Assembly (NCBI RefSeq): GCF_022809715.1
Contig: NZ_CP094459.1
Location: 744,001 to 808,000, forward strand
Origin: Burkholderia pyrrocinia
GTDB taxonomy: Bacteria > Pseudomonadota > Gammaproteobacteria > Burkholderiales > Burkholderiaceae
Direction: 5' to 3'
DNA length: 64,000 nucleotides
The notes under the pieces are model-generated. The model saw only the letters and a program-made list of their open reading frames with translations, was not told the DNA's origin and did not search any database. Both the position numbers and the translations under genes were made by a program. Below are positions 36,764 to 43,315 of this stretch, one piece after another; positions within the stretch are counted from its first letter, which is position 1, and every line of letters begins with the position of its first letter.

Positions 36764-36868
36764 GACTGCAGGCGAGGTCGTCTTGTGGCGAGCGCCAAAG
36801 CTGCTACCATGCGCGAAACGCAGTTCAACGAAAACGATTTCGAACAACAAGAAAGAGAGGGCAAAGCA

Positions 36869-37312
36869 ATGAACCAGACCACCATCCAGCAGCCGTCGTT
36901 CGCATTCGTGGCCGCGTCGTGGGCCGCACTGATCGCAGGTTTTGCGGCATTCCTGATCGGGCTCTGGAACGCCGGCATGCAGCTCAACGAGAAGGGCTAC
37001 TACTTCACCGTGCTGGTGTTCGGTCTCTATGCGGCGATCTCGCTGCAGAAAAGCGTCCGCGATCGCGCGGAAGGCATTCCCGTCACCGGCATCTACTACG
37101 GCATCAGCTGGATCGCGCTGCTGCTGTCCATCGCGCTGCTGGTCGTCGGCCTCTTCAACGCAACGCTGCAGCTGAGCGAGAAGGGCTTCTACGCGATGTC
37201 GTTCGTGCTCGCGCTGTTCGGCGCGGTGGCCGTGCAGAAGAACACGCGCGACCTGCAGGGCGCGAAGCCGCGTTATACCGACGCCGATTCCGCGCCGTCC
37301 GTCCAGGAGTAA
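36869..37312 (+). CDS. YiaA/YiaB-type inner-membrane protein
   Basis: 147-aa protein with two repeated modules, each of two hydrophobic segments: WAALIAGFAAFLIGLWNAGMQLNEKGYY and WIALLLSIALLVVGLFNATLQLSEKGFY, the LxEKG(Y/F)Y motif occurring twice. This is the YiaA/YiaB (YiaAB) two-helix domain in duplicate; function is unknown in all species. The ATG at 36869 follows GAGAGG. The frame is open back to 36785 but the added part has no similarity. The glycosyltransferase starts 139 bases after its stop. Confidence 0.85.
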   Translation: MNQTTIQQPSFAFVAASWAALIAGFAAFLIGLWNAGMQLNEKGYYFTVLVFGLYAAISLQKSVRDRAEGIPVTGIYYGISWIALLLSIALLVVGLFNATLQLSEKGFYAMSFVLALFGAVAVQKNTRDLQGAKPRYTDADSAPSVQE

Positions 37313-37451: not shown

Positions 37452-38516
37452 ATGCCAGACATCACAGACATCGCACCGCGCACGCGCTCGGTAGCCCGTG
37501 GCGTGGCCGCGAAGGCCGCGCTCGTGCTGGAGACGAACAACCTGCGCGGCGGCGCCGGCCTCGCACAGGCCGTCGACAGCCTGAAGCGCCTCGTGTCGGC
37601 GCTGTCGAAGCAGACCGTGCCGCCCGCGGCACTCGCGCAATGGATCATCACGCACGACGGCTTGCCCGCCGATGCGTGCGCACAGATCGTCGCGCTGGCC
37701 GGCCGCCCGATCGACTTCGTCGAGATCGGCGCGAGCACCGGCTACTACGATGCGAAGAACGACGGTTTCGATCGCGTCGACGCGGCTCGCTGCGACATCG
37801 TCGTGTTCGGCGATGCCGATTGCCGGCCGGCCGACGACTGGCTCGAGCAGCTGCTTGCACCGTTCGCACGCGATGCCGGCGATGCACCCGTCGCGGTGGC
37901 GGGGCGGACCAGCTATGCGCCGAACGTGCTCGGCATCGCGCTGACGTCGATCGATTTCATGTATTTCCCGAGCCCGCTGCGCGACGGCGCGACACGCAAC
38001 TTCTACGCGAACAACGTCGCGTTCCGGCGCGACGTGTTCGCGCAATTCCGCTACGAGCCGCTCGACGGCGTCTATCGAGCCCATTGCCAGGTGATGGGGC
38101 TGCGGATGCAGGCGGCCGGCGTGGCCGTCGAGTTCGCGCCGGCCGCGCATACCGAGCATCGGCTGCCGGACACGCATCGCGAATCGCTGAAGCTGCGCTG
38201 GATGCGCGGCGAGGACAGCGTCGGGCTGACGCCGTATCTCGTGAACGCGTACCTGCCGCGCCAGTGGCAGTGGCTCGGCCGCAGCGGCCCGCTCGGCCCG
38301 TTCTGCGTGATGGCGATGCGGCTCGGATACAGCCTGCGCGCGCTCGATCGCCAGCAACTGCCGCGGCTTGGCGCCGTCCGTTATCTCGCGGCCGTCGGCG
38401 TCACGATCGCCGCGTCCGCCGTCGATACGCTCGGCGCGCTCGCGCGCGGTTTCGGGCTCGCGGGACGGGCGTCGGCCCGGCGCGATCTCGAAGCGCTGTC
38501 CTATCACCGTCATTGA
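37452..38516 (+). CDS. Family 2-type glycosyltransferase
   Basis: 354-aa GT-A fold transferase. Visible are the nucleotide-sugar part with DxD-like VVFGDADCRPADDW (about residues 116-130), an acceptor-side section (NNVAFRRDVF) and a GEDSV motif near residue 257 that fits the family's ED base. A long hydrophobic stretch near the C-terminus (VRYLAAVGVTIAASAVDTLGALA) may anchor it to the membrane. GGAG 9 bases upstream supports ATG 37452; ATG 37431 is possible. First gene of a six-gene run with lipid-type enzymes. Its sugar and acceptor are unknown. Confidence 0.82.
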   Translation: MPDITDIAPRTRSVARGVAAKAALVLETNNLRGGAGLAQAVDSLKRLVSALSKQTVPPAALAQWIITHDGLPADACAQIVALAGRPIDFVEIGASTGYYDAKNDGFDRVDAARCDIVVFGDADCRPADDWLEQLLAPFARDAGDAPVAVAGRTSYAPNVLGIALTSIDFMYFPSPLRDGATRNFYANNVAFRRDVFAQFRYEPLDGVYRAHCQVMGLRMQAAGVAVEFAPAAHTEHRLPDTHRESLKLRWMRGEDSVGLTPYLVNAYLPRQWQWLGRSGPLGPFCVMAMRLGYSLRALDRQQLPRLGAVRYLAAVGVTIAASAVDTLGALARGFGLAGRASARRDLEALSYHRH

Positions 38517-38574
38517 AACGGCACCGCGCACCGCGGCCCCGCCACTCCGACTCCCTGCATTCATCCCGACGACC

Positions 38575-39591
38575 ATGCCTTCATTCGCCACCCGAGTTGC
38601 CTGCCTCGCCCTGTTTGCCGCCAGCGCCGGCGCCCATGCCGCGCCGGTCGATCACGCGGGGCGCGGGATCGTCCACTTCGCGTCGCAAAGCGGCTGCCCG
38701 TTCGCGAGCGCGGCCGCGACGGACTGCAATCGCGTCGCGCTCGATGCGCCCGACGTTCACGCGAGCATCGATACCGACGCGCACGCGATCGTCTTTTCGA
38801 GCGACGCGAATCGCCGCACGAAGGACGTGCTCGGCGACGTGCTGCTGCAGGGCACGGGCGTCGACGGCGACGGCCGGCGCGTGCCGTTGAGCGTCCACGT
38901 GCTGCTGCGTCGCGACGGTGCGAAATGGGGTCGCGACGTGTACGTCCATGCGCCGGTGCACGGCAAGTTCACCGATGTCCGCATCGATCCGTATCGCGTG
39001 CGCGTGAAGGAAGGCGACACCGAGCGCGACGTGCTGACGCCGGACGAAACGCTCGCGCTGTTCGCGCATCCGTCGCTGGCATCGCGGCTCGCGCGGCATC
39101 TCGTGAAGGTGAGCGCGACCGATCCGAAGCAGCCGTCAGCCGACGACATCACGATCGCGCTCGGCGTCGGCGGCCTGACGAAGCCGGTCGCACGAGCGAG
39201 CTTCACGTCGAACGCGCCGCACGATGCGGACGTCGATCGCGCACTCGCGGCCGGTACGTGGTCGATTCGTTTCGAAGCACTGAGCAATCACATTCCGGTG
39301 TGGGTCGCGCAGCGCGAGCTGTTCCTGTTCGGTCTCGACGGCAGCGCGCTGTTGAAGGAGGTGCGCGAGCGCGGTTTCAGGAAGAACGACCGGATCGAAT
39401 TCGGCGCGCGCGGCGGCAGCGGCTATCTGCGCGTGAACGGCCGCGAGGAGGCATTCGCGGGCGCGGCCGCATCCGCGCATGCGTTCATGCAGGAAAGTTT
39501 CGTCGGCCTGATTCTCGGCTGGCGTCGCGATCCGGCTGCCGCTGCGGCATCCGCGACGAAATCCGCGTCCGCACCGGGCGTGCCGGCATGA
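38575..39591 (+). CDS. Secreted protein of unknown function
   Basis: 338 aa with a clear signal peptide (MPSFATRVACLALFAASAGAHA, cut probably before APVDHAG) and otherwise no family I recognise. The mature part contains two cysteines (GCPF and DCNR) close together near the N-terminus that may form a disulphide, several charged beta-like segments, and a low-complexity Ala-rich end. It is 58 bases after the glycosyltransferase and its stop overlaps the next gene's ATG by 4 bases. It could be a periplasmic binding or transport component of the lipid cluster, which is inference from position alone. Confidence 0.8.
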   Translation: MPSFATRVACLALFAASAGAHAAPVDHAGRGIVHFASQSGCPFASAAATDCNRVALDAPDVHASIDTDAHAIVFSSDANRRTKDVLGDVLLQGTGVDGDGRRVPLSVHVLLRRDGAKWGRDVYVHAPVHGKFTDVRIDPYRVRVKEGDTERDVLTPDETLALFAHPSLASRLARHLVKVSATDPKQPSADDITIALGVGGLTKPVARASFTSNAPHDADVDRALAAGTWSIRFEALSNHIPVWVAQRELFLFGLDGSALLKEVRERGFRKNDRIEFGARGGSGYLRVNGREEAFAGAAASAHAFMQESFVGLILGWRRDPAAAAASATKSASAPGVPA

Positions 39592-40337
39592 CAGCGGCAA
39601 GCGAACTGCCCGCATCGCCGCAGGCGATGCACGGCGAGCGCTTCGACTGTCTCGATGTGCCCGTGCCGCACGGCGCGGCGCGGGTACGTGCGTATCTCGT
39701 CGATCGCATCAAGCGGGCGGCGATCCGGCAGCTTCATCGCAGCGCGCATGGCGAGCGCTGGATGCTGCGCATGTACCTGATCGGCGAAGAAGCGACCGAG
39801 TGCGCGTTGCACGACGACTGGACCGGACAGCCGCCGGACTGGCTCGCGCCGCGCATCGAGCAGCATCTCGCGGACGAGCGCCGCCACGCGGCCGCGTTTG
39901 CCGAGGCGCTGCGCCTGCGCGGTGTCGCGGCTTCGACGGAGCCGCACGAGCCCGACTGGCTGAGCCGGCGCAAGATCCTGCGATGGCGCCGGCTCGCGCA
40001 GCGCTACGCGCCGCAGTTCGCGCAAGGCGTGCTCGTGCCGGCCTATGCGACGGGCCTGTGCGCGGAACAGATGGCGATGCGCGTGCTGGCGCGACACTGC
40101 GCGACGATCGGCGACGCGCATCCGCTGTATCCGCTGCTCGCGCGCGTGCTCGCCGACGAGACGCGGCACGTCCGGCTCTGTTCGGACACGCTGCGCCGTC
40201 TCGTCGCGCCGTCCGAGGCGGCGCATCTCGCCGCGTTGCTGGACGAGATCCGCGCGATCGACGCCGGTTTCGGCGTGACGGGGGCGCTGGCGATGTACGC
40301 GGCCGGCTGGATCCAGTCGCTTCGTCCGCGCGCATGA
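39588..40337 (+). CDS. Ferritin-like di-iron protein
   Basis: 249-aa helical protein with a complete set of ferritin-like iron ligands: Glu67/68 in GEEATE, Glu97 and His100 in DERRH, Glu160 in AEQM and Glu191 and His194 in DETRH. This E...ExxH twice pattern is that of di-iron oxygenases and ferritin-like domains (MiaE, AurF and others are distant examples). The start overlaps the preceding stop by 4 bases and its own stop overlaps the next start by 4, so translation is coupled. A hydroxylase or desaturase role on a lipid or sugar substrate is an inference. Confidence 0.82.
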   Translation: MTAASELPASPQAMHGERFDCLDVPVPHGAARVRAYLVDRIKRAAIRQLHRSAHGERWMLRMYLIGEEATECALHDDWTGQPPDWLAPRIEQHLADERRHAAAFAEALRLRGVAASTEPHEPDWLSRRKILRWRRLAQRYAPQFAQGVLVPAYATGLCAEQMAMRVLARHCATIGDAHPLYPLLARVLADETRHVRLCSDTLRRLVAPSEAAHLAALLDEIRAIDAGFGVTGALAMYAAGWIQSLRPRA

Positions 40338-41491
40338 TGCCGCGGATCGTCTATCTCGCGACGGCCGACGCACGCGGCCATCTGATGCGCGCGCAACTGC
40401 TCGTGCATGCGTTGCGCACGGCCGGCGCGCAGGTCGACGTGCTGACGACGTCCGATGCGGGGCAGGCATTCCTGTCCGCGTTCGGCATCGACGCGCCCGT
40501 GCTGTCCCGTTACTACGCGGTGCAGTTCGACGCACGGCAGAACATGCTGCGCGATGCGACCGATCGCAATGTCGCGCACTACGTGTTCAGGCCGACGCGC
40601 ATGCTGCGCGACATCGCGCGGCTGCGTGCGATCGTCCGCGATGCAGATCTCGTGATCAACGACTCGTTTCATCCGGCGCTGCTGTTCATGGGCGCGATAC
40701 CGGGCTGGCGGCGCCGTATCGTTCATGTGTATGGCGGCAGCCTGCGCCGCGCGTTGACCGCGAATTTCGATGCGCGGCTGCCGCGTGCGCTGGCGCGTGC
40801 GTTTGCGCGGATCGTCGACTGGCAGATCGATTCGGCGCGGTGCTGCATCGAGCACGATTTTGCGTACGAGGTGACCGACGCTGCGCAGCGATCGCGCGAG
40901 CATTGCAGGTTGCCGACGCCGGTGCCGGTCGTCGCCGAACTGCCGGCTTCGGAGCCGGCTGTCGCCGCCGTTTATCTGAATCCGCACTTTCGCGATGTCG
41001 CGCTCGCCGATGCGCTGTCGGCCGGCATGCGCGACGCGGGGCTCGCCGCGCACCGCGTGGGCGAGGGTTACGCCGGGCACGACGGCTGGACCGGTGTCGA
41101 TACCGACTGGGCGATGCGTGCCGCGCACGCGCCGCTGATCGTGTCCGCACCCGGAATGGCCGCGCTGTCGATTGCGCGCGTATATCGCCGCCCGATCCTG
41201 CTCGTGCTGACCGATCAGCCCGAGCAGGCGAGCAATGCCGCGCGCGCGGCACGGCTGCAGCTCGTGCATCGCATCGTCACGTGGCGCGGCGATGCGGCCG
41301 CGTTTCGGCAGGAGGTCGGGCAGGCCGCTGCGGACCTGATGCGCAATCCGGGTACGCGAGCTGGAACGATCGCCGGCCGCGAGCATGCGTGTGCGCGCGA
41401 GGATGCGTGGACGTCGCGCATCCTCGCGCTGCGGCCGCATGCACGGACGGCCGATGCGGATCCCCGATGCGAGGCGCCGGCGCCGCGATGA
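40334..41491 (+). CDS. GT-B-like glycosyltransferase
   Basis: 385-aa protein with the GT-B N-terminal pattern ATADARGHLMRAQLLVHALRTAG (GxGHxxR-like) and a second half with a donor-type stretch (APLIVSAPGMAALSIARVYRRPILLVLTDQPEQASNA) typical of MurG/UDP-glycosyltransferase-like folds. Lipid-linked substrates are usual for this fold group. ATG at 40334 overlaps the previous stop by 4 bases. The last ~35 residues are low-complexity. It could act after or together with the first glycosyltransferase of the cluster. Confidence 0.78.
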   Translation: MMPRIVYLATADARGHLMRAQLLVHALRTAGAQVDVLTTSDAGQAFLSAFGIDAPVLSRYYAVQFDARQNMLRDATDRNVAHYVFRPTRMLRDIARLRAIVRDADLVINDSFHPALLFMGAIPGWRRRIVHVYGGSLRRALTANFDARLPRALARAFARIVDWQIDSARCCIEHDFAYEVTDAAQRSREHCRLPTPVPVVAELPASEPAVAAVYLNPHFRDVALADALSAGMRDAGLAAHRVGEGYAGHDGWTGVDTDWAMRAAHAPLIVSAPGMAALSIARVYRRPILLVLTDQPEQASNAARAARLQLVHRIVTWRGDAAAFRQEVGQAAADLMRNPGTRAGTIAGREHACAREDAWTSRILALRPHARTADADPRCEAPAPR

Positions 41492-42117
41492 ACACGATGC
41501 TGCTTCGTGACGATCGTCGACCCGATATCCGGCAGATGCTGGCCGCGACGTTCGGCATGACCGCGGGCCTCGCGATCTTCATTCTGCTGGAGCGCAGCGT
41601 CACGCCGCGCTACGTGTTCGCCACGCCGATCGATGCGCGGATTCCGTTCATCGCATGGTCGTGGTTCGTCTATGTCGGCTTCTTTCCGTTCGTGATTGCG
41701 CTCGCCGCGTATGCACGGCCGCCCGCGTTCGCCGCGTTCAAGGAGGCCGTGCTGATCGCATTCGTGCTCGGTGTCGTCTGCTTCCTGCTGTTTCCGGAAG
41801 CCGTGCCGCGGCCCGACGTCGCGGAGATCGGCAATACGTTCGTGCGCGACCGTCTCGCGCGCATGTGGCAGCTCGATCTCGCGGCCAACGGTTTTCCGAG
41901 CCTGCATGTCGCGGTGACGTGTCTTGCGTGCCGGATGCTGACGGACCGGCGCTGGAGCCGGCATCGGTTCGTGGCGACGGCGATCGGTCTGCTGATCTGT
42001 GCGTCGACGCTCACGCTCAAGCAGCATACGGTCGCCGACGTATTAGGCGGTGTCGCGCTCGCGATGGTCGGCGCGCTGTGGGTCGAGCGGCGTTCGCTGC
42101 GCAGGAGGCTCGCGTGA
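41488..42117 (+). CDS. PAP2-superfamily membrane phosphatase/phosphotransferase
   Basis: 209-aa membrane protein with about six hydrophobic segments. Catalytic motifs are FPSLH (residues 136-140) and KQHTVADVLGG (His180, Asp184); the first part of the PAP2 triad (KxxxxxxRP) is not obvious. FPSLHxA and HxxxD with a following GG resemble the PAP2_3 group that includes inositol-phosphorylceramide synthase, i.e. enzymes moving phospho-headgroups between lipids. ATG overlaps the preceding stop by 4 bases. Phosphatase or headgroup transfer on the cluster's lipid is the likely job. Confidence 0.85.
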   Translation: MNTMLLRDDRRPDIRQMLAATFGMTAGLAIFILLERSVTPRYVFATPIDARIPFIAWSWFVYVGFFPFVIALAAYARPPAFAAFKEAVLIAFVLGVVCFLLFPEAVPRPDVAEIGNTFVRDRLARMWQLDLAANGFPSLHVAVTCLACRMLTDRRWSRHRFVATAIGLLICASTLTLKQHTVADVLGGVALAMVGALWVERRSLRRRLA

Positions 42118-43064
42118 CGACGGATGCCCATGTTCATCACGCCGGGCCGAACGCCGAGCTTGCGTTGTTCGTGCCCGATCCCGCGCTGTTTCGCGTGAGC
42201 GCGCCACGTGTCGGCGCTGCGCTGGCAGGCGACTGGCTGATGATTGCCGGGGCGTTCGCGATGGCGATCGCGTTCCCGCATCCGCTCGTATACGCATTTG
42301 CCGCGGTCGTGATCGCGCGCAGCCAGCTTGCGCTCGCGGTCATGATGCACGAAGGCGCGCACGGGTTGCTGGCACGGAACCGGCGCGTCAACGACGTGCT
42401 GGGCCAGTTGTTCGCGGCCGGCCCGCTGTGGCTGTCGCTGCGCACGTATCGTGCGGGGCATCTGAAGCATCATCGCGCGCCGATGCAGCCTGACGATCCC
42501 GTCGCGCTGCTGTTCGGCGTGCACGACTATCCGGTGACGCGCGGCCGGCTGATCGGCCGCCTGCTCGCGTACGCATGCGGGATCGGCTACGTGACGAGCG
42601 TCGTGAAGCTCGCGCGCGGCGAGTTTGCGCATGCGTTGCCGACGGTCCGGAAATCACGCGCGTATGCGGCGTGGGAAGTCGCGTCGATGCTGGCCGGCAA
42701 CGGCTTGTTGTTCGGTGCGCTCGCACTGGCCGGACATCCGCTGTTGTACATCGGGTTGTGGATCGTGCCGTCCGTCACGCTGTTGCCGCTCGTCGGGCAG
42801 GTGCGCGCGATCTTCGAGCACGCGGGGCTGCCGGCTTGCGACGACCAGAGCCGCAACGCGCGCACGATCATCCGGCGTTCGTGGCAGACGTTCCTGTTCG
42901 GGCCGCACGCGATCCATTTCCATATCGAACATCACCTGTACATGCGGATGCCGTTTCATAACCTGCCGGTCGTGCATCGACAACTCGCGCAGCGGCAGTT
43001 GTTGCCTGAAGGCAATCTGTACGCGGGATACGGTGCGGTGCTGCGTGACGTGAGCGTGCGCTGA
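42114..43064 (+). CDS. Membrane fatty acid desaturase
   Basis: 316-aa di-iron membrane desaturase/hydroxylase. Three histidine boxes are complete: HEGAH (residues 79-83), HLKHH (116-120) and HFHIEHH (268-274). Several membrane segments (AGAFAMAIAFPHPLVYAFAAV; LLFGALALAGHPLLYIGLW) lie between. The GTG start at 42114 has AGGAGG upstream and overlaps the PAP2 stop. Last gene of the coupled run. Position and regiospecificity are not readable; lipid-bound acyl chains or sphingoid-type chains are likely substrates. Confidence 0.88.
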   Translation: MTTDAHVHHAGPNAELALFVPDPALFRVSAPRVGAALAGDWLMIAGAFAMAIAFPHPLVYAFAAVVIARSQLALAVMMHEGAHGLLARNRRVNDVLGQLFAAGPLWLSLRTYRAGHLKHHRAPMQPDDPVALLFGVHDYPVTRGRLIGRLLAYACGIGYVTSVVKLARGEFAHALPTVRKSRAYAAWEVASMLAGNGLLFGALALAGHPLLYIGLWIVPSVTLLPLVGQVRAIFEHAGLPACDDQSRNARTIIRRSWQTFLFGPHAIHFHIEHHLYMRMPFHNLPVVHRQLAQRQLLPEGNLYAGYGAVLRDVSVR

Positions 43065-43238: not shown

Positions 43239-43315
43239 TGGTAGGGTGGGAGGGACTCGAACCCTCGACTCTCTGATTAAAAGTCAGATACTCTAACCAA
43301 CTGAGTTACCACCCC
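43239..43315 (-). tRNA. tRNA-Lys (anticodon UUU)
   Basis: 77 bases including an encoded CCA. Acceptor stem GGGGTGG pairs with CCACCCT. The anticodon loop CTTTTAA reads UUU in the centre, so it decodes Lys AAA/AAG. The T loop GGTTCGAGTCC is typical. A near-consensus sigma-70 promoter lies about 85 bases upstream and an intrinsic terminator 26 bases downstream. Confidence 0.97.

Follow-up and report, generated by a model that had tools for sequence, protein, structure and literature searches.

A two-module operon of glycosyltransferase, di-iron, PAP2 and desaturase genes in Burkholderia with a possible role in an envelope glycolipid or glycoconjugate

Why should two glycosyltransferases, a secreted-looking protein, a di-iron protein, a membrane PAP2-family enzyme and a desaturase be encoded side by side? 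This question is raised by positions 37452-43064 of a 64,000-nucleotide stretch of Burkholderia pyrrocinia DNA (contig NZ_CP094459.1, forward-strand positions 744,001 to 808,000; hereafter the window), which comes from a 7.69 Mb assembly of three contigs. An original prediction, made from the letters of this DNA, had described six genes running in one direction with four 4-base overlaps, and this layout is indeed present: GT2, SEC, DII, GTB, PAP2 and DES follow one another on the plus strand, and each of the four junctions from SEC to DES overlaps by 4 bases (ATGA three times, GTGA once). The six genes form one conserved, selected unit, and the operon consists of two modules, a GT2-SEC-DII-GTB core and a PAP2-DES add-on. 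On its function our judgement is evenly divided: this two-module operon, which stands at different genome sites and has also been lost, may make or finish an envelope glycolipid or a lipid-linked glycoconjugate.

Conservation, modules and distribution

The DII gene was found in 27 of 65 Burkholderia genomes, and exactly these 27 also have a desaturase orthologue (identity of 76% or more), with agreement in 65 of 65 genomes (27 with both, 38 with neither). Of the 33 genomes that the desaturase search gave, six were set aside: five hold paralogues with identities near 40% and one (G335) a fragment. Measured between their low coordinates, the DII and desaturase matches are 2.1-2.7 kb from each other in each of the 27 genomes; the value of 2.1 reflects a gene truncated at the end of a contig. 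A Fisher test on this co-occurrence overstates the evidence because the genomes share ancestry. The six genes stand in order behind a YiaA-type gene in all 15 long named Burkholderia loci (L009-L023); outside this set, L025 begins inside the DII gene and L024 belongs to another genus. The overlaps are repeated in these loci in 15/15, 15/15, 14/15 and 14/15 cases, from the SEC to the DES junctions, in a count where the start codon chosen was the one nearest to the window's start, which biases toward agreement. By comparing each gene with six Burkholderia relatives (36 comparisons), Ka/Ks values of 0.15-0.40 were obtained for all six, and every gene is therefore kept as a protein under purifying selection.

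The YiaA-type gene is also retained in genomes that lack the operon, and it served as the anchor for 13 operon-less sites, fetched from among 19 Burkholderia genomes that have a YiaA match and lack a DII gene; the six omitted had weaker YiaA matches. GT2 fragments remain at three of the 13 (L058, L059 and L063), and therefore the operon has also been lost in Burkholderia. L058 additionally retains the last 53 bases of the operon. At another site, L065, the match extends 36 bases into GT2, and at the other nine no operon fragment was detected, so that loss and original absence are not distinguished there. In L063 (4173-5633) a 5' piece of GT2 lies next to a 3' piece of the desaturase gene, which looks like the scar of a deletion.

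Beyond Burkholderia, all six genes were found in a Paraburkholderia genome (G868, locus L046; 53-70% identical, with different flanks) and in the Pseudomonas genome G1150 (L053; 52-68% identical), and an Azonexus contig from a metagenome-assembled genome (L024) carries the first four genes in order before it ends. The original prediction had made its pathway depend on the genes being conserved together; this comparison was run, and the genes do stay together in Burkholderia and in these Paraburkholderia and Pseudomonas genomes.

The division into modules is seen in three further genomes of the same genus as G1150 (G1060, G1125 and G1143), where the 19 kb fetched contain GT2-SEC-DII-GTB but neither PAP2 nor desaturase. 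Across the whole of these genomes the closest desaturase relative has 34% identity; for PAP2 the search covered the fetched region. Because the core stands without PAP2-DES there, the lipid tailoring assigned to this pair is regarded as an add-on. The junctions of L046 and L053 follow the same division, as the SEC/DII and DII/GTB overlaps of 4 bases are kept, whereas GTB and PAP2 are separated by 50-53 bases and the PAP2/DES spacing is +91 or -14. In one metagenomic protein of 497 residues (P0293), PAP2_3 and FA_desaturase domains are fused.

In G1060, G1125 and G1143 the core sits between a gene that we take to encode a helicase-like protein and an agarase-like glycoside hydrolase gene. In G1150 these two neighbours adjoin directly and the operon lies at another site; therefore, the core entered or left its site as one piece. 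The hydrolase is a large protein with Agarase_CBM and GH42-like matches (L055 11283-13598, L054 5470-7851). A role as replacement partner was considered and rejected, since the one comparison genome, G1150, indicates that the hydrolase belongs to this site natively. A short-chain dehydrogenase gene lies directly upstream of the core in the three core-only Pseudomonas genomes (at 6323-7231 in L055), is absent from the G1150 regions that were fetched, and could be an alternative partner of the core.

Carriers outside Burkholderia are rare in the sampled genomes. The family-level sample gave 8 of 200, own genome included, the class-level sample 1 of 369 (the own genome), and a Pseudomonadaceae sample, the family of G523 by 16S, 4 of 298. 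The order-level sample (n=300) gave the own genome and two weak matches (E 4.5e-4 and 7.1e-4) that were taken to be unrelated. Among 72,556 plasmid records there was no match for DII (E 1e-5), GT2 (1e-20) or a Xanthomonas desaturase (1e-30), and none of 73 pattern matches in viral contigs was related to DII. A hint of linkage elsewhere comes from matched records of equal length (DII and SEC 11, DII and desaturase 17, SEC and desaturase 10, all three 3), where the DII and desaturase lists hold the best 120 matches each, the longest records are whole chromosomes, and equal length is not proof of the same contig.

The encoded proteins

The catalytic residues that the original prediction had listed for DII, PAP2 and DES were all found in the translations. 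DII (39588-40337) contains E67, E68, E97, H100, E160, E191 and H194. Across 28 aligned sequences, the window's included, E67, E71, E97, H100, E160, E191 and H194 are invariant, whereas E68 varies; identity to named Burkholderia loci reaches 91%. More broadly, metal and catalytic residues are kept across genera. The fold model of DII best matches MiaE and the aldehyde-deformylating oxygenases (ADO), ferritin-like di-iron enzymes with which it has in common the helical bundle and the ligand order E67 / E97xxH100 / E160 / E191xxH194, an order (E / ExxH / E / ExxH) that we take to be characteristic of these enzymes. However, identity in the MiaE/ADO rows is only about 11-19%, and a sequence search of the Protein Data Bank (PDB) did not find them. 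A second candidate is the p-aminobenzoate N-oxygenase AurF, whose profile (PF11583) matches 26 of the 28 aligned members at E<=0.01, the best relative reaching 4e-12; the window's protein scores below the curated cutoff (24.3 against 29.6 bits), and the AurF structure ranks 45th by Foldseek and is absent from the 50 rows of another structure comparison. A predicted di-iron oxygenase-like protein, closest in modelled fold to MiaE/ADO, fits best.

SEC (38575-39591) is without a Pfam family, and its label as secreted rests on the appearance of the N-terminus. The model of its second half (residues ~180-328) is modestly chalcone-isomerase/fatty-acid-binding-like, the closest folds being chalcone-isomerase-like proteins and the plant fatty-acid-binding FAP proteins, at about 10% identity and with a weak score. 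SEC differs from them in an extra beta-rich first half, which is unassigned, and in being bacterial and secreted-looking. The fold likenesses of DII and of the second half of SEC would each be in keeping with a hydrophobic substrate.

GT2 (37452-38516) belongs to glycosyltransferase family 2, with a Glycos_transf_2 (PF00535) score of 34.8 bits (cutoff 23.3) and a DAD motif at residue 121 that is the same in all 8 sequences aligned; RGED at 252 becomes RGGD or RGQD in Pseudomonas, and one weak hydrophobic stretch lies near the C-terminus. GTB (40334-41491) falls below the curated cutoffs of both profiles that it matches, Glyco_transf_4 (20.7 against 28.5 bits) and MJ1255/VC2487 (19.8 against 195.9). 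With a C-terminal DQPEQASNA motif at 294, which we take to be of GT-B type, GTB is likely a second glycosyltransferase of this predicted type.

PAP2 (41488-42117) is a membrane protein with four hydrophobic segments and a member of the PAP2_3 phosphatase/phosphotransferase family (PF14378, 55.4 bits, cutoff 27). It carries FPSLH at 136, H180 and D184, and has in common with Aur1-type phosphotransferases this family match and the PSLH / HxxxD residues, although solved PAP2 structures give no sequence match to it. DES (42114-43064, GTG start) belongs to the membrane fatty-acid-desaturase/hydroxylase family (FA_desaturase, PF00487, 128.5 bits, cutoff 29.7), with histidine boxes HEGAH at 79, HLKHH at 116 and HIEHH at 270, and is 98% identical to a desaturase record named B. 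pyrrocinia. Its best NCBIfam match, the FA_desaturase-superfamily arginine hydroxylase GntB, scores 95.1 bits, but this is far under the cutoff of 380, and DES is paired with PAP2. Relatives of the desaturase at 55-63% identity are named from Stenotrophomonas and Xanthomonas (P0219, P0277, P0281, P0283 and P0285-P0287). In the search of the PDB by sequence, in which SEC was not queried, no convincing relative was obtained for the DII alignment, GT2, GTB, the desaturase or PAP2.

Possible products of the operon

In the proposed glycolipid or glycoconjugate pathway, GT2 and GTB would attach sugars to a hydrophobic acceptor, DII would oxidise this acceptor or an acyl chain, and SEC would retain the resulting hydrophobic molecule in the periplasm. 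In genomes with the add-on, DES would desaturate or hydroxylate a lipid in the membrane and PAP2 would remove or transfer a phosphate head. The lipid pathway of six genes that had been predicted originally is thus retained in part: the genes are conserved together and a glycosylated lipid is plausible, but the core-only Pseudomonas genomes speak against one indivisible pathway. A bolder version, which we put forward tentatively and with more doubt than belief, is a new bacterial class of glycolipid or glycoconjugate, in which a portable core of two glycosyltransferases, a MiaE/ADO-like oxygenase and a periplasmic lipid carrier of chalcone-isomerase fold is completed by a lineage-added PAP2-desaturase module.

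The operon could instead make a secreted glycosylated small molecule, which an AurF-like DII would oxygenate, the glycosyltransferases glycosylate and SEC bind, with PAP2-DES as lineage-specific tailoring. The AurF-type Pfam matches in most of the DII family are in line with this, as are the three genomes whose core is unaccompanied by lipid-specific enzymes. So is the modest fold likeness of SEC, since proteins with a chalcone-isomerase-like fold have aromatic ligands besides fatty acids. However, neither a scaffold-building enzyme nor a transporter is found among the six genes, and PAP2 and DES belong to membrane-lipid families, so that this explanation is considered unlikely.

An improbable alternative, too, is the decoration of an envelope polysaccharide, where GT2 and GTB would assemble a short saccharide on a polyprenyl carrier, PAP2 would recycle the polyprenyl phosphate, and DES/DII would modify the carrier or an acyl substituent. 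It draws on weak matches of GT2 to polysaccharide glycosyltransferases (EpsD, 42.6 bits, cutoff 370) and of PAP2 to undecaprenyl-diphosphate phosphatase (19 bits, cutoff 229), but flippase, polymerase and ligase are all missing among the six genes, and three genomes lack PAP2 next to the core.

The original prediction had also named a sphingolipid-like glycolipid as plausible, which would point to an Aur1-type pathway. The PAP2_3 match, in what we take to be the Pfam family of the Aur1-type transferases, and the place of DES in a broad desaturase family agree with it, but these are broad family names and lend no specific support; the core also occurs by itself, and among the six genes, to which the search for backbone genes was confined, there is no serine palmitoyltransferase or ceramide synthase. 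This product is very improbable. That the genes are co-directional yet functionally unrelated can be given almost no credence: 4-base overlaps, being common in bacterial operons, would by themselves allow it, but joint presence and absence, an order kept with different flanks and across families, and purifying selection all stand against it.

Should the envelope glycolipid or glycoconjugate proposal be correct, some Burkholderia, Paraburkholderia and Pseudomonas would have in common an undescribed envelope lipid or glycoconjugate, and a role would be gained for one di-iron family and one secreted family that have no known role. The patchy distribution by gain and loss, together with the core-only genomes, offers natural comparisons for lipidomics. 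The enzyme families are known and their combination appears undescribed: in open PMC literature, from which most subscription papers are absent, titles and abstract openings revealed no paper on this gene set. A paper that treats BCAL3209 as a toxin (PMC5295037), reached through locus tags guessed from gene order, was set aside as irrelevant. An anti-phage defence system was likewise rejected, PADLOC models matching none of the six proteins.

Flanks of the operon

Promoter and terminator scans gave no signal exceeding shuffles. To the left of the operon, at 36785-37312 on the plus strand, lies the YiaA/B-type membrane protein gene (YiaAB Pfam) that is its constant neighbour in Burkholderia. 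To its right, a tRNA-Lys (TTT) gene at 43239-43315 on the minus strand stands between the operon and opposite-strand genes that are presumably cpoB/pal/tolB-like.

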